DNA of 24,706 nt. It comes from a virus. The DNA lies in the IMG/VR virus record IMGVR_UViG_3300007735_000516, positions 1 to 24,706 of that record; one strand, given 5' to 3'. The position numbers were made by a program, and so were the translations under genes. The notes under the pieces were generated by a model, which did no database searches, had not been told where the DNA came from, and worked only from the letters and a program-made list of their open reading frames with translations. Positions 1,021 to 14,011 of the stretch are shown here, in pieces; the first letter of the stretch is position 1; every line of letters starts with the position of its first letter.

Positions 1021-1446
1021 CTATCCCTCCTGCGTGTCGTTGGCGGTCAAGTACAGGTAGCCGTACTCTTTCTCCGCATTGAACTGCGGGCAAGCCTTGG
1101 TCACACCTGGAAAGTCCCTGTGTCCGCAAATGCGGGCCTTCGGGTATTTCTGCAACCAAGATAGCAGAACCCCTGCGATGGCTTGCCTCTGCTGAATGGT
1201 GCGGTCGTCCGTGTCCTTGCCGCCGATATAGGACACATGCAGGCTCGTAGCGTTGTGTCCAGCAACCCCGTTGGTGGTCTTGTCGTCGGTCGCAAGGGTG
1301 AGGATGTTCCCGTTGGGTTCCACAATCTTGTGATAGCCCACCGACTTCCAACCAAGCCCCTCCTTCCAATGGCGGCGGATGGATGCAATGGTGGTGTTCT
1401 TCGGCGTGGCCGTGCAATGCACGACGAGGTGGGTTATGTTTCGCAT
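1021..1446 (-). CDS. N-acetylmuramoyl-L-alanine amidase (phage endolysin)
   Basis: The 141-residue protein is a single amidase_2/PGRP domain of T7-lysozyme type, predicted to cut the bond between N-acetylmuramic acid and L-alanine of the peptide stem at lysis. Visible features are HLVVHCTAT with Zn ligand H10, VGYHK around the catalytic Tyr39 position, VAGHN, VSYIGG, ICGHRDFPG with H109, and KACPQF with K117 and C119. This matches the H/H/C metal site plus Tyr and Lys of T7 lysozyme. I chose the ATG at 1446 because the family homology begins there; a longer frame to 1596 overlaps the upstream gene. There is no signal peptide, so a holin or other export route is needed. It is coupled to the upstream 83-residue gene (2-nt gap). 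Confidence 0.92.
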   Translation of the reverse strand: MRNITHLVVHCTATPKNTTIASIRRHWKEGLGWKSVGYHKIVEPNGNILTLATDDKTTNGVAGHNATSLHVSYIGGKDTDDRTIQQRQAIAGVLLSWLQKYPKARICGHRDFPGVTKACPQFNAEKEYGYLYLTANDTQEG

Positions 1447-1448
1447 GG

Positions 1449-1700
1449 TTATTCTTCGGGGTTTAAAAGCGGATAGTAGCAGACGGTGTGGTCTTCGTCC
1501 TTGGGCAACTGGGAGGCAGACACTTCGTGAATCCCCGCCCATTGGGCTTTGGCGGGGTCGTAGCCCAGCAGTTCGCAGGCACGGCGGTATTCGCACAGGA
1601 GGGCGTGGTTCTGCTCCAGGTCAGCGGGCGAAATAGCAATCATCAGCCGCTCCAAGGCGTTTGTGAGGGCTTTTGCAGGTCGGGTAGAGTGGTAGGTCAT
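1449..1700 (-). CDS. Small protein of unknown function, first gene of the endolysin operon
   Basis: The product is 83 residues, soluble and mostly helical in appearance, with a CEYRRACELLGYDPAKAQW central stretch and an acidic C-terminus ending NPEE. I do not recognise the family. It starts right after a TAnnTTTG box on the minus strand (4 nt between box and ATG) and ends 2 nt before the endolysin start, so the two form one transcript. Its position suggests a lysis or late accessory role, but nothing in the sequence (no membrane segment, no signal peptide) shows it is a holin. Confidence 0.7.
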   Translation of the reverse strand: MTYHSTRPAKALTNALERLMIAISPADLEQNHALLCEYRRACELLGYDPAKAQWAGIHEVSASQLPKDEDHTVCYYPLLNPEE

Positions 1701-3574: not shown

Positions 3575-3802
3575 ATGCCCAAACCTAAAGGAAAAGAAAT
3601 CCAACGAAGGGTCGCCACCATCTACGCCGTGTCATACCTCGCACAACGCCCATACAGGGCCACAGAACTCGCCAAAGTGCTTGGCCTTAACATGCGTACC
3701 ACTTACCGAATTCTAAGCGATTTACGGGCCTCAAATTGGCTCGTGCAAGACAACTGTACCTATTCAATTCAACCCAACCAAACCCCAACCCAAAACCCAT
3801 GA
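3575..3802 (+). CDS. Small winged-helix DNA-binding protein
   Basis: The 75-residue product is nearly all one helix-turn-helix domain: YLAQRPYRATELAKVLGLNM, then RTTYRILSDLRASNWL, is the helix 2 to recognition helix pattern of IclR/MarR-type winged helices. A short wing (VQDNCTYSI) and a polar tail follow. It probably acts as a dimeric transcription regulator of phage genes. Its start is 2 nt after the previous stop and its stop overlaps the next ATG. The operator is not identified. Confidence 0.75.
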   Translation: MPKPKGKEIQRRVATIYAVSYLAQRPYRATELAKVLGLNMRTTYRILSDLRASNWLVQDNCTYSIQPNQTPTQNP

Positions 3803-4181: not shown

Positions 4182-6419
4182 ATGGCAGAAATATCAATCT
4201 TCAAAGCCTCCACGGGAAGCGGTGTGCGAAACAACGTCCCGGAGAGCCACATGCAGTTCGTCCAGTACATTCAGGACATCAAGGACGGCATCTTCTACAC
4301 CGAGGTCATGGCCTATCGTAAGGCCAAAACCGAGGAAACCAAACGAAGGCTCACCGCCGTAACTCCAAGCGGCAAGTTCAAGAAGCAGGGCAAAGAGGGC
4401 CTTGAAGCGCATTCGGGCATTCTCTGCATTGACATCGATGCCAAGGACAACGAGGGCGTTGACGTGCTGGCAATCCGTGAGGACGAATACCTCTACGCCC
4501 TGCACAAGTCCACGGGAGGCGAAGGCTATGCGGCCTACTACCGTATCGAACCGGACCGCCATTTGGATGCGTTCTACGCCCTGGAGAAACGTCTTGCGGA
4601 CAAGTTCCACATCATCGTGGACCCTGCATGCAAGGACGTAAGCCGTCTGCGGTTCGTCAGTTTTGACCCCGACGCATTCATCACCGCCAAAAATGTGCAG
4701 GTGTTCAAGACCTACCTGCCCAAGGTCAAGGCCGCACCGGTCCCCAAGTTTTATCCCCACGGCGAACACGATGTCGAACACATCCTCCAACAACTGGAGG
4801 CCAAGCGCATTGACCTGACGGATTCTTATGCCGATTGGGTCAAGATTGGATTTGCCATTGCAGCAAAGTACCATGAGCCGGGGGCCGACCTATTCCATCG
4901 GGTATCGGCGCTATCCCCGAAGTACAACCCCGAAGCATGCGACCGCAAGTACAAGCAACTCTGCCAGTCCAAGCAGAACCAGGTGTCCTTCGCCTCGTTT
5001 ATGTGGCTCGCCAAAAACGCAGGGGTCGAAATCCAAACCAAGCAAACCAAGCATATTGTATCAACCGCCAAGTCCCACCGCATGCGGGTGGGTACCAATG
5101 GAGGACCCAAGGACATCAACGCCGCCACCGAAACGGCGGTCCGCATCCTTCGGGAGATTGACCAAATAAACGTGGACCAGTTGGAGGAAATCGTCGCCAA
5201 CACCATGGCCCTTGATACTACGGAATTGAAATCCGCTGATACCGAGGACACTCCGCTCAAACAAATCAAGGCTTACTTAAGGTCCTTTGACCTAAAGCGC
5301 AATGAAGTAACCCGTTGCATTGAACTCAAAGGGGAACCCATTACCGACGTTGACATCAACGACCTATACACCGATTGCTTGGAGCAGTTTGGAAGGAAGG
5401 AGGTCAACATGCAGTTAATCAACTCAATTATTGAATCAAGCCATACCCCGACGTACAACCCGTTTATGCAGTTCTTCGCCAAGAACGCACACCGGACCCC
5501 GACTGGCTGCATCAAAGCATTGACCGATACCATCGTGGCCACAAATGTCGAACACGCATTCATGCAACTCTGCATCTACAAGTGGCTCTGCTCGGTGGTT
5601 GCAAGCATGCACGGGGAGTATTCGTTGTCCATCTTGGTGCTATGCGGCGACCAGGGTATCGGCAAAACCAACTTCTTTCGCAACCTGCTGCCAACGGAAC
5701 TACGGTCCTACTACGGCGAATCCAAACTGGATGCCGGCAAGGATGACGAAATTCTCATGTGCAAGAAGATTATCCTCTGCGACGATGAGTTCGGCGGCAA
5801 GTCCAAGCAGGAGGCCAAGAAACTGAAGGAACTGTCCTCCAAGCAGACATTCAGCATCCGCAAGCCTTACGGACGGGTCCATGAAGAATTGACCAGGTAT
5901 GCGGTGCTTTGCGGCACATCAAACGACGAGGAAGTCATCAACGACCTTACGGGGAACCGTAGGATTCTGCCCATCGTTGTGGGCCACATTGATTGGGATG
6001 CCTATGCCGCCATCGACAAGACGGACCTGTTCATCGAAGCCTACCACGCCTACAAGACCCAAGGAGCAGATGCCTGGCAACTGTCCAAGGCTGAAATCAC
6101 CATGCTGAACGAAAAGACCATGAACAACGTCCAGCCAGCGGTTGAGAAGGAATTGCTCTTTAACTATTTTGAGATGCCAAACGAAAAGAATAAAGGCATC
6201 GGAGCGGAGTGGCTGACCAACTCGGAAATTAAAAACATCCTTGAATCCTACACCGAGCAAAAAATTAACCCGAACAAACTTGGGGCGGTTCTCAAGTCCA
6301 TTGGCTGCAAAAAAGTCAGCCGAGCCGACCGAAACAACCGAGGATGCTATTACCTAGTCACTAAAACGAATAGTAGTAACTATGCGCAAGGCGGTGATAA
6401 TAAGCGATATCCGTACTGA
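4182..6419 (+). CDS. Primase-helicase (BT4734 primase domain, PriCT-2, VirE helicase)
   Basis: The 745-residue protein combines three domains. Residues about 3-170 match the BT4734 N-terminal (VirE-N/AEP-type primase) domain, with ILCIDIDAKD (acidic D84, D86) and KSTGGEGYAAYYRI. Residues about 195-285 look like PriCT-2 (DWVKIGFAIAAKY, LAKNAGVEI). Residues about 450-620 are a VirE/SF3-like ATPase with Walker A GDQGIGKTN (489-497), Walker B IILCDDEF (DDE 534-536), a sensor-like LCGTSNDEEV and arginine-finger candidate GNRRILPI. It should prime and unwind phage DNA. ATG 4182 was chosen; an upstream TTG at 4158 lies in the terminator stem. The probable origin follows it directly. Confidence 0.9.
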   Translation: MAEISIFKASTGSGVRNNVPESHMQFVQYIQDIKDGIFYTEVMAYRKAKTEETKRRLTAVTPSGKFKKQGKEGLEAHSGILCIDIDAKDNEGVDVLAIREDEYLYALHKSTGGEGYAAYYRIEPDRHLDAFYALEKRLADKFHIIVDPACKDVSRLRFVSFDPDAFITAKNVQVFKTYLPKVKAAPVPKFYPHGEHDVEHILQQLEAKRIDLTDSYADWVKIGFAIAAKYHEPGADLFHRVSALSPKYNPEACDRKYKQLCQSKQNQVSFASFMWLAKNAGVEIQTKQTKHIVSTAKSHRMRVGTNGGPKDINAATETAVRILREIDQINVDQLEEIVANTMALDTTELKSADTEDTPLKQIKAYLRSFDLKRNEVTRCIELKGEPITDVDINDLYTDCLEQFGRKEVNMQLINSIIESSHTPTYNPFMQFFAKNAHRTPTGCIKALTDTIVATNVEHAFMQLCIYKWLCSVVASMHGEYSLSILVLCGDQGIGKTNFFRNLLPTELRSYYGESKLDAGKDDEILMCKKIILCDDEFGGKSKQEAKKLKELSSKQTFSIRKPYGRVHEELTRYAVLCGTSNDEEVINDLTGNRRILPIVVGHIDWDAYAAIDKTDLFIEAYHAYKTQGADAWQLSKAEITMLNEKTMNNVQPAVEKELLFNYFEMPNEKNKGIGAEWLTNSEIKNILESYTEQKINPNKLGAVLKSIGCKKVSRADRNNRGCYYLVTKTNSSNYAQGGDNKRYPY

Positions 6420-6623
6420 CATAGTCACATAGTCACTAAAAATGCGATTTCTCTTTAAGCAATATATATGCGTGTGCGTGTGTGCGTGTATGTATATATA
6501 TATATTCTCTATAGAAAAGTAGTGAATGTAGTGACTATGTGACTATAAGTGGCCCTCACGCTATCAAAAACGCAGATTTTCCCAGTCACTACTCAAATTT
6601 TGCAGTAACTATCAGTAACTATG
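6355..6623. other. Probable replication origin (iterons, inverted repeat, Z-DNA-like tract)
   Basis: The region spans the end of the primase gene and the 201-nt gap to the helicase. It holds many copies of AGTnACT: 6356 (C), 6375 (A), 6431 (C), 6530 (G), 6584 (C), 6604 (A) and 6614 (A), plus variants AGTCACA at 6423 and TGTGACT at 6540. TAGTCACTAAAA occurs twice (6355, 6430). A perfect 18-bp inverted repeat (6421-6438 with 6529-6546) encloses an alternating purine/pyrimidine tract of GT/AT repeats at about 6464-6505, prone to unwinding or Z-DNA. Placement between primase and helicase genes fits an origin. The last iteron runs into the helicase start codon, so it may also be an operator. Confidence 0.65.
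6421..6546. repeat. Perfect 18-bp inverted repeat flanking an alternating Pu/Py tract
   Basis: The left arm ATAGTCACATAGTCACTA (6421-6438) is the exact reverse complement of the right arm at 6529-6546; the spacer is 90 nt. The spacer includes TATATATGCG, GTGTGCGTGTGTGCGTG and a run of TA repeats. The arms themselves contain two iterons each. Confidence 0.95.
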
Positions 6624-8048
6624 TTAAGACCCTACCAAACCAAAGCCATTGACATGATGCGGTTAAGCCTTTCCGAGGGCAAGAAACGCTTGATACTCTG
6701 CTCCCCAACTGGAAGCGGAAAGACCGTCATGTTCACCTACATGGTTGCAAGAGCCTTGGAGAAAGGCAAGCAGGCCATCATCTTCACGGACCGTGTCGAA
6801 CTGCTGAAGCAATCCAACGGAGCCTTGGACCTGTTCGGAATCAAGCCTACCCTTATTGAAGCCAGCAAGACCCGGCTCGATGTTTCGGGGAATTGTTTCA
6901 TCGCCATGGCCCAAACCTTTAGCCGTAGGAAGGACGCAGTCGAATACACGGACCTGCTGAACCGAATGGACCTGGTCATCATTGACGAAGCCCACAAGCA
7001 GACCTTCAACCCATTGCTGCCATACATCAACCCCAAGGCCGTGGTCATCGGGGCTACTGCAACACCGCTGCGTCGGGGGAATCAAGAGTGCCTGTCCAAG
7101 TTCTACGAGGTTCTGCATGTTCCAGTTCAGGTGCAGGAATTGATTGACCAAGGGTTTCTTGCCAACCCCGTGACCTATGGTGCCAATCAAGACCTTTCCG
7201 GAATCCGCATGAAGGGGAACGATTACGACACGGAGCAGATGGCAACGGTCTATTCCAAGCGGAGGGTATTTGATGGAGTGGTCCAAAACTATGGGAGGCA
7301 TTGCAGGGGCAAGAAGGCCATCGTGTTTGCCAGCAACATCGCATCCAGTCAAGAGGTCTGCGCCGCTTTGCAGGTTGCAGGCCACAACGCCCGGCATGTG
7401 GATGGGACCATGAACAAGCAGGACCGGGCCGATGTACTGGCGTGGTTCAAGCATGCCCCCGACGCTATCCTTTGCAACTGCGATTTAATGACCACAGGCT
7501 TTGACGAGCCAACCATCGAGGTCGTGATCCTGTACCGTGCGACCGCAAGCCTGCCGCTATTCATGCAGATGGTGGGCCGTGGTTCCAGGGTGACACCTAC
7601 CAAGAAGGAGTTCACCATCCTTGACTTTGGGAACAACGTGCAGACCCATGGCTTTTGGGAGAACCGGCAGCAATGGTCCCTCAAAAAGAAACGCAAGAAG
7701 AAATCCGATGGCGTTGGCGGTGCGAAGAACTGCAAGGGCTGCGAGGCGATTATTCCCGTGGGGGCGATGAAGTGCAAGCATTGCGGCTACGAGTACCAGC
7801 GCAAACCGCAAGAGCAGGGCGAGATGGTGGACCTACACCTGATGACCAAGGCACAGGGCATGCAGTTGGCCACGACCAGCAACATGTACCTAAAGGCACA
7901 ACTGGCCAAGGCCAAGGTAATTTCGCCTTATTGGGTGCTTCACAACCAATGCAAGAGCAAAGCCGAAGCCTTGGAGTTCATCCGCTACATGGGCTGGAAG
8001 CCAGGCTGGGCCTTCCACAACAAAGACCGTTTTCCTATATTAAAATAA
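6621..8048 (+). CDS. SF2 DEAD/DEAH-box helicase with zinc ribbon
   Basis: The 475-residue protein has motif I SPTGSGKT (28-35), motif Ia FTDRVELLKQS, motif II IDEAH (D122), motif III GATATPLRRG, and C-terminal RecA-lobe motifs VFASN, TTGFDEP (V) and QMVGRGSR (VI). A lysine-rich linker then leads to a four-cysteine zinc ribbon with C371, C374, C385 and C388 (CKGC..CKHC). It resembles phage SF2 helicases such as those related to UvsW/RecG-type branch processing or type III restriction-like helicases, so a role in replication or recombination is likely. Its ATG overlaps the last iteron of the probable origin, and it is 4 nt from the following nuclease gene. The C-terminal 90 residues are not recognised. 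Confidence 0.9.
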   Translation: MLRPYQTKAIDMMRLSLSEGKKRLILCSPTGSGKTVMFTYMVARALEKGKQAIIFTDRVELLKQSNGALDLFGIKPTLIEASKTRLDVSGNCFIAMAQTFSRRKDAVEYTDLLNRMDLVIIDEAHKQTFNPLLPYINPKAVVIGATATPLRRGNQECLSKFYEVLHVPVQVQELIDQGFLANPVTYGANQDLSGIRMKGNDYDTEQMATVYSKRRVFDGVVQNYGRHCRGKKAIVFASNIASSQEVCAALQVAGHNARHVDGTMNKQDRADVLAWFKHAPDAILCNCDLMTTGFDEPTIEVVILYRATASLPLFMQMVGRGSRVTPTKKEFTILDFGNNVQTHGFWENRQQWSLKKKRKKKSDGVGGAKNCKGCEAIIPVGAMKCKHCGYEYQRKPQEQGEMVDLHLMTKAQGMQLATTSNMYLKAQLAKAKVISPYWVLHNQCKSKAEALEFIRYMGWKPGWAFHNKDRFPILK

Positions 8049-9122: not shown

Positions 9123-9473
9123 ATGACCCCAGCCCTCATCCACCATTTAGTTGACACCACGGCAGCGATATTCGGCATCACGCCCGACCAAGTGCGCTCC
9201 CCCAGCAGGGAACGGCCCTGCGTCATCGCTAGGAACATCGTGGCTGACATCGCCTACAAAGAGTATCTGTTTACCTACATGGCTATCGGCAAGGAACTGA
9301 ACCGCCACTATAGCACTATCATTATAAACTTGGAATCCTTCCACAACGACTGCAAGGCGAAGCCTCAACTGCGGTACCTACGGAGGCAAGTTTTCAACAA
9401 TGCGCAGGAGTACTTGCAGACCGCCGAAGGGGCTTATATTACTGATACCCTGCAACTTCCGAGCGGAAAGTAG
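9123..9473 (+). CDS. DnaA domain-IV-like DNA-binding protein
   Basis: Residues about 8-80 of 116 follow the DnaA C-terminal domain pattern: VDTTAAIFGITPDQVRSPSR, then the RxxxV-x-AR-x-I-A-D-I-A-Y block, MAIGKELNRHYSTII, matching the helix-turn-helix and the signature loop that read the DnaA box. The AAA+ ATPase domains of DnaA are absent. Such stand-alone domains probably bind DnaA-box-like sites, either to recruit or block the host initiator or as a transcription regulator. The C-terminal 35 residues are variable. A terminator follows the gene. Confidence 0.75.
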   Translation: MTPALIHHLVDTTAAIFGITPDQVRSPSRERPCVIARNIVADIAYKEYLFTYMAIGKELNRHYSTIIINLESFHNDCKAKPQLRYLRRQVFNNAQEYLQTAEGAYITDTLQLPSGK

Positions 9474-11608: not shown

Positions 11609-11624
11609 CTAAACAAAAAATAAA

Positions 11625-11735
11625 ATGGAAAAAATAGTAAGTATAAAAATTCTTAGACCAATTACATTATCAATTATAGGCATGTTTCTTATCACCTATA
11701 TTATTGTGGCATATGTTTTTGATTTAGAAATGTAA
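11625..11735 (+). CDS. 36-residue membrane microprotein between the tRNA-like genes
   Basis: ATG 11625 encodes MEKIVSIKILRPITLSIIG, then MFLITYIIVAYVF and a short acidic end, i.e. one transmembrane helix with a basic N-terminal side. The segment is strongly AT-rich compared with the surrounding genes, and there is an A-rich leader (ctaaacaaaaaataaa). It may be a real microgene or AT-rich filler; the membrane-like composition favours a gene only moderately. Confidence 0.4.
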   Translation: MEKIVSIKILRPITLSIIGMFLITYIIVAYVFDLEM

Positions 11736-13355: not shown

Positions 13356-14011
13356 AACTCATCCACTACTACCACATTTATTGCGGCGGCGGCGGCCAAT
13401 GGCAACTCATCATGCACCAGCACATGATGGCCCTGTGCAATTACGGGCTGATTGAACAGTTGGACGAGATTCGGGTCGGCATCGTCGGTCCACCAGAGCA
13501 GCGGAAGTTGGTCAAGGAAATCTTGGACAACTCGCTCGTGGCCCCAAAAATCAAGGTGGTGGTCACCCGAACCAACGCTTGGGAGCAGGCCACGCTGACC
13601 GAGATGTACAAGGCATCGCAGACCGAGGATGCGGCCTACCTGTACGGGCATACCAAGGGCGGTGCTGACCCGTCGCTTGTCAAGCAGATGTGGTGCAGGT
13701 CTATGATATTCTTTAACATCGTGGCTTGGGAACGCTCCCTTGCAGAACTCGCCAATGTTGACTGCGTGGGGACGCATTGGCTTACCACCGAGCAGTTCCC
13801 CCAAATTGCAGACCAAAACAACCCCGACGGCTACCCCTACTTTGCGGGTAACTTTTGGTGGGCCAAGTCATCCCACATCCGTGAACTCGGAGAGCCAGTA
13901 CGGGAACACCGCTATCAAGCCGAAACTTGGATTGGAAAGCGGAAAGGAATGACCGTGTACGACCCGAACCCAGGATGGCCCGACCCAAGCAAATTCGTCA
14001 TCACTTTTTAG
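13352..14011 (+). CDS. Putative glycosyltransferase
   Basis: The 219-residue protein has the pattern of a GT family seen in capsular or surface polysaccharide loci: MKLIHYYHIYCGGGGQWQ at the N-terminus, AAYLYGHTKGG (96-104), MWCRSMIFF, THWLTTEQFP and YFAGNFWWAKSSHI (163-176). The HTKG and GNFWW motifs are typical of these enzymes. No signal peptide or membrane segment is seen, so it should act in the cytoplasm, probably with a nucleotide-sugar donor. It belongs to a three-gene cassette coupled to tail genes; the acceptor (virion protein, DNA or host glycan) is unknown. Confidence 0.65.
   Translation: MKLIHYYHIYCGGGGQWQLIMHQHMMALCNYGLIEQLDEIRVGIVGPPEQRKLVKEILDNSLVAPKIKVVVTRTNAWEQATLTEMYKASQTEDAAYLYGHTKGGADPSLVKQMWCRSMIFFNIVAWERSLAELANVDCVGTHWLTTEQFPQIADQNNPDGYPYFAGNFWWAKSSHIRELGEPVREHRYQAETWIGKRKGMTVYDPNPGWPDPSKFVITF

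Follow-up and report, generated by a model that had tools for sequence, protein, structure and literature searches.

What does an array of short repeats do when it is packed between two replication genes of a phage? We asked this of the stretch 6355-6623 in IMG/VR virus record IMGVR_UViG_3300007735_000516, of which positions 1 to 24,706 (the window, analysed as a whole) were available. A sequence-only reading had proposed an iteron origin there, serving the primase-helicase encoded just upstream. Judged from the comparison of sequences, the marked stretch is very probably where a Bacteroidota phage starts copying its DNA.

Repeats and genes around the candidate origin

On recounting, the seven AGTNACT copies, the TAGTCACTAAAA direct repeats, the exact 18-bp inverted repeat and the alternating tract (44 nt) given in the sequence-only reading were all found as described. 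AGTNACT occurs 9 times in the 24.7-kb window, where 3.06 copies are expected and the maximum in 100 shuffles was 7; by this whole-window count, 7 of the 9 copies lie within 6356-6620. All four copies of TAGTNACTA in the window (expected 0.09) fall in 6355-6623, and a blind scan that took the most repeated 7-mer in every 320 bp ranked this array as the single top spot of the window. The direct repeat TAGTCACTAAAA is located at 6355-6366 and 6430-6441, its first copy within the primase-helicase gene, and the exact inverted repeat (6421-6438/6529-6546) extends imperfectly to arms of 49 nt. The features of the locus are as follows.

4182..6419, (+): primase-helicase gene, proposed initiator, with BT4734-like_N, PriCT_2 and VapE-like domains (Pfam)
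6204..6362, (+): winged-helix codons (residues about 675-727), proposed iteron-reading domain (AlphaFold; differences between loci L141 and L142)
6315..6320, (+): codons V712-S713; VA in L141, HN in L142 and L146, which have AACCA iterons
6355..6363, no strand: iteron TAGTCACTA, inside the primase-helicase gene
6374..6382, no strand: iteron TAGTAACTA, inside the primase-helicase gene
6421..6438, (-): left arm of the 18-bp inverted repeat, with two (-) iterons TAGTCAC at 6422 and 6430
6439..6528, no strand: core between the iteron clusters, of low duplex stability, proposed unwinding element
6462..6505, no strand: alternating purine-pyrimidine (GT/AT) tract of 44 nt, not kept in all clades
6529..6546, (+): right arm of the 18-bp inverted repeat, with two (+) iterons GTGACTA at 6531 and 6539
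6583..6592, (-): lone iteron, in most clades 22-24 bp ahead of the helicase-side iterons
6603..6611, (+): iteron CAGTAACTA
6613..6623, (+): iteron CAGTAACTATG, whose end is the start codon of the SF2 helicase gene
6621..8048, (+): SF2 helicase gene, ResIII/DEAD and Helicase_C (Pfam)

The primase-helicase has 745 residues and its stop codon lies at 6417-6419; ATG 4182 was preferred to TTG 4158 as its start after comparison with relatives. Its nearest solved structure is SaPI PriRep1 (7pds; hmmsearch 1.7e-10, Foldseek 5e-9). The predicted model, trusted for local structure alone (mean pLDDT 76, pTM 0.45), ends in a winged helix with the AlphaFold secondary structure E675-679 H680-691 H697-706 E711-714 E720-727. 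The neighbours named in the sequence-only reading also held in Pfam, with BT4734-like_N, PriCT_2 and VapE upstream, the SF2 helicase at 6621 and a Bac_DnaA_C protein at 9123, downstream of the helicase; a VRR-NUC-like protein (just under the Pfam cut-off) is encoded 3' of the SF2 helicase. The DnaA-like protein had been suggested as a binder of the repeats, a suggestion we dropped, as no DnaA box (TT[AT]TNCACA) is present near the array, the sole copy in the window lying at 751. Small proteins similar to this one (9123-9473, with a DnaA C-terminal HTH) are annotated in Cellulophaga phage phi46:1 and in mumin6-4. On the strand opposite to the main genes, an ORF at 1021-1596 (-) resembles N-acetylmuramoyl-L-alanine amidase, as judged by eye alone.

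A layout common to relatives and to the Sfi21 origin

Related loci were gathered by primase-helicase similarity from IMG/VR scans with the helicase and four primase-helicases, one genome scan and a few isolated phages, and the 248 loci with a usable gene end gave 83 distinct sequences. Adjacency of the SF2 helicase was checked in the first set alone, where both genes flank the gap in 128 loci (65 distinct gaps). After the primase stop, nearly all loci examined share the same succession of (-) iterons, an AT-rich core of ~90 bp, (+) iterons, one (-) iteron and two or three (+) iterons. Counted from the stop, the (-) iterons lie at ~0-13, the first (+) group at ~105/114/123, the lone (-) iteron at ~166 and the last (+) group at ~189/199, and these positions hold across iteron types. 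In L168, L290 and L272 the layout is shifted with its inner distances kept, the last (-) iteron being 23 bp before the next (+) one. A half-site of GTNAC[T/C]A type was detected at each of the eight fixed positions in 48-74 of 77 scored origins (identity to a query of 60% or more, and sufficient length), counts that are lower bounds since the scan used this single pattern and was blind to other iteron types. Just 5' of the helicase start, most clades carry one to three iterons spaced 10-11 bp apart. Across the whole genomes of the Flavobacterium phages mumin6-4 and lotta8-1, the top-ranked 7-mer cluster (at about 16.9 kb and 10.8 kb, respectively) likewise lies close 3' of the VapE gene.

The sequence-only reading had put forward comparison of this gap in related phages as a check, and the outcome was favourable for nearly all relatives examined but not for every one. 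Phage phi46:1 has homologues of the two genes (38-40%), but its gap contains a small ORF and no array, Nonlabens P12024L has a weak array with the helicase located elsewhere, and no array was found in L163. The scan for homologues in cellular genomes returned only two distant loci, one of which (L162, from a Saprospiraceae MAG) carries an array of GCGACA at the equivalent position. In Cellulophaga phage phi12:1 (L297), repeats of TGACCACTT and TTACTGGTCA type occupy non-coding DNA at ~13460-13690, ~0.8 kb downstream of the VapE gene, and this stretch is possibly an origin of the same kind.

According to the sequence-only reading no origin of this design had been described, a statement that Streptococcus phage Sfi21 contradicts. 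Its deposited record (NC_000872, 34487-34784) names a replication origin ('phage inhibitory sequence', PER) that is non-coding and directly 3' of a D5/DUF5906 replication helicase gene, a position shared by the array of the window. The layout is likewise shared: paired (-) iterons TTAGTTACTTAGTTACT, an AT-rich core, paired (+) iterons GTAACTAAGTAACTAA and more copies before the next ATG. Even the letters of the Sfi21 iterons, TTAGTTAC/GTAACTAA around an AAATA core, are close to those of the window. The two differ in that the Sfi21 core consists of AAATA repeats and that of the window of GT/AT; in that Sfi21 has a separate Prim-Pol gene whereas the window encodes a fused BT4734-N/PriCT-2/VapE protein, DUF5906 matching both; and in that the gene after the Sfi21 origin is not the SF2 helicase and the host belongs to the Firmicutes. 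Thus the Sfi21 layout recurs across phyla with helicases of the VapE/D5 type. Plasmid replication in trans upon infection, together with interference with the phage at high copy number (PER), serves as a criterion for origins of the Sfi21 type. The Sfi21 element has been described as an independent origin activated by infection (PMC6356513).

Drift of the iterons and the winged helix

The iteron type changes en bloc from clade to clade, all copies together. It is GTNACTA in the clade of the window, TAACCA in L142, L146 and L150, TTACCACC in L290, TTACTACA in L153, GCGACA in L162, GGTAAC in the mumin phages and GGAACA in the lotta phages. The most informative pair is L141 and L142, whose primase-helicases are 97% identical while their iterons are of GACTA and AACCA type, respectively. 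Of their 19 differences in 747 aa, 11 fall within the last 80 residues, which comprise the winged helix and tail (P 4e-7). The ratio of nonsynonymous to synonymous codon changes is 11:16 in this part and 8:152 in the rest of the gene (Fisher 2.7e-6), the synonymous density being about equal in both. The changes include V714H and A715N (V712/S713 in the window), at the strand following the recognition helix. L146, 67-68% identical to L142, combines KKHNR, with HN at the same place, and TAACCA iterons. The intragenic iteron corresponding to 6355..6363 also switched type, from GTAGTC in L141 to GTGGTT in L142, through synonymous codons.

Because the L141/L142 differences cluster in the winged helix and go with an iteron switch, this domain of the primase-helicase is probably the iteron reader, as far as sequence comparison can tell. 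The evidence, one close pair and one parallel case (L146), is strong but falls short of proof, since L168 and L169 have no such pattern: their primase-helicases differ in 63 of 717 columns (about 91% identity) and their iteron mixes are partly different (GACTACA vs GAATACA copies), with no obvious winged-helix switch. The L141/L142 switch could also have arisen by recombination at the 3' end rather than by point changes, yet synonymous divergence is not raised there. We give roughly even chances to a lock-and-key evolution, in which the geometry of the origin stays fixed while iterons and winged helix change together. The few L141/L142 changes within the recognition helix and behind it, VA to HN included, would then accompany the iteron switch and make the two origins incompatible in specificity; the pressure might come from rival phages, from satellites or from PER-type prophage origin decoys.

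Recognition of this kind has precedents. SaPI Rep, an initiator of VapE/D5 type like the window protein, whose helicase part it matches best in sequence and structure (PriRep1, 7pds), reads iterons directly downstream of its own gene through its C-terminal domain (PMC7581432), and the covariation of winged helix and iterons among our relatives, seen by sequence comparison, agrees with C-terminal reading in SaPI style. The likeness to the SaPI origin, compared by description, is in position and recognition logic; on the SaPI side the primase forms a separate or different module. The P4 alpha protein unites primase, helicase and an origin-repeat-binding C-terminal winged helix (PMC4234260); its primase is, however, of Toprim and not archaeo-eukaryotic type, whereas the window protein has BT4734-like_N and PriCT_2 with no Toprim match in Pfam, and the P4 origin was compared by description. 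The design itself is already described in Sfi21, and the most useful new element is the natural L141/L142 specificity switch. Through this pair, with two proteins 97% identical and different iterons, the recognition code of initiators of this kind can be tested directly.

The core, the skew step and alternative readings

The core is AT-rich in every representative examined (GC 0.20-0.37), and in the window the 40-bp stretch of lowest stability starts at 6488, between the arms. The second least stable 40 bp (11616-11655) lie between a GP3-like packaging gene and the terminase gene. The sequence-only reading had counted a Z-DNA-prone GT/AT tract as part of the design, with the perfect inverted repeat as its boundary, and neither survived comparison. 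No long GT/AT tract is present in L139, L153, L168, L169, L272, L290, L162 or Sfi21, which rules out the tract as an essential part. The uninterrupted stem varies from 6 to 18 bp among relatives, 18 bp in the clade of the window only and often 6-12 bp elsewhere, with offsets in the spacing of the arms, which rules out a conserved cruciform. Since the tract is often missing and the stem so variable, both are, by comparison of the clades, traits of some clades, a decoration outside the design. PriCT/HBD primases recognise GTG or GTGA (PMC8718748), and wherever the tract is found its GT is on the + strand; that it might serve as a series of 5'-GTG start sites for the primase is only a weak idea, for it is missing in several clades. 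In pRN1, a change of the GTG motif did not abolish replication (PMC4234260).

GC skew, another check named in the sequence-only reading, spoke for the origin in relatives and not in the window itself. It was higher in the 8 kb downstream than in the 8 kb upstream of the site in 12/12 family contigs, six of which also showed a change of sign, and in the complete-looking G001 and G012 (99- and 127-bp end repeats) the raw minimum is found less than 1 kb from the site. As the 12 contigs share gene order and are not independent, the step lends modest support to an origin. The skew of the window falls throughout, past the site too, as in several relatives, and is uninformative for such a fragment.

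Fixed geometry, concerted drift, winged-helix covariation, the weakest duplex in the core, the skew step in relatives and identity of layout with Sfi21 together back the iteron origin proposed for the upstream primase-helicase, and on these sequence-based grounds we consider it highly probable that 6355-6623 works as a phage origin in the following manner. The primase-helicase would bind 7-9 short iterons through its C-terminal winged helix, and the oppositely oriented clusters would let the AAA+/VapE helicase load at each side of the core. The AT-rich core of low stability would then melt, the primase domain would prime there and the forks would leave. A large phage group, represented by IMG/VR contigs and by related isolates that infect Flavobacteriia, thereby gains a mapped origin with comparative support.

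The array might instead be an operator, its iterons bound by a repressor that controls transcription or translation of the helicase, with no origin at all; the primase-helicase could itself be this repressor, as could the HTH protein encoded at 3575 or the DnaA-like one at 9123. The last iteron does overlap the helicase start codon, and in most clades one to three iterons closely precede this codon at steps of 10-11 bp. This leaves aside the mirror-image iteron sets that flank a 90-bp low-stability core more than 70 bp from the start codon and the two iterons within the upstream gene. No promoter exceeded chance, and the layout is that of the annotated Sfi21 origin, so we regard an operator alone as improbable; autoregulation on top of origin function is quite possible, and control of the SF2 helicase gene by the last iteron, as the sequence positions allow, is possible. 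Somewhat less probable still is a stem-loop origin of the pRN1/BIP-1 kind, in which the inverted repeat would act as a cruciform or hairpin and not through protein-binding iterons. The pRN1 plasmid and phage BIP-1 combine primase, helicase and winged helix with an origin directly 3' of the gene, and pRN1 requires a 100-nt stem-loop there (PMC4234260); the place and size are similar in the window, and 6415-6552 folds stably as single-stranded DNA (z = -5.45 vs shuffles). However, those origins have a stem-loop without iterons, whereas the group of the window conserves iteron identity and spacing, governing copies outside the arms too, and not stem length, with 16-18 uninterrupted bp in some clades only. 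Least credible, to the point of being negligible, is that the array acts in the primase transcript as an RNA element or terminator. In some clades the interval from the right iterons to the lone (-) iteron does allow a short hairpin with a T run (z about -2 in 3/7), but in the window this hairpin is weak if there at all (z 0.2), and it would leave the iterons and their drift alongside the protein unexplained. The search for promoters and terminators gave no signal above chance except the GT/AT tract itself.

Among the contigs of relatives, G001, G006, G010, G012 and G017 (loci L298-L321) are classed as linear with exact end repeats of 99-127 bp and are probably complete genomes of 32-39 kb. 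The 40-kb contig IMGVR_UViG_2222084011_000057 has two divergent copies of the locus at its two ends (L134/L135, L073/L037); it probably joins two related phages in one chimeric assembly. G006, of ~32.2 kb, encodes a primase-helicase 98.8% identical to that of the window.
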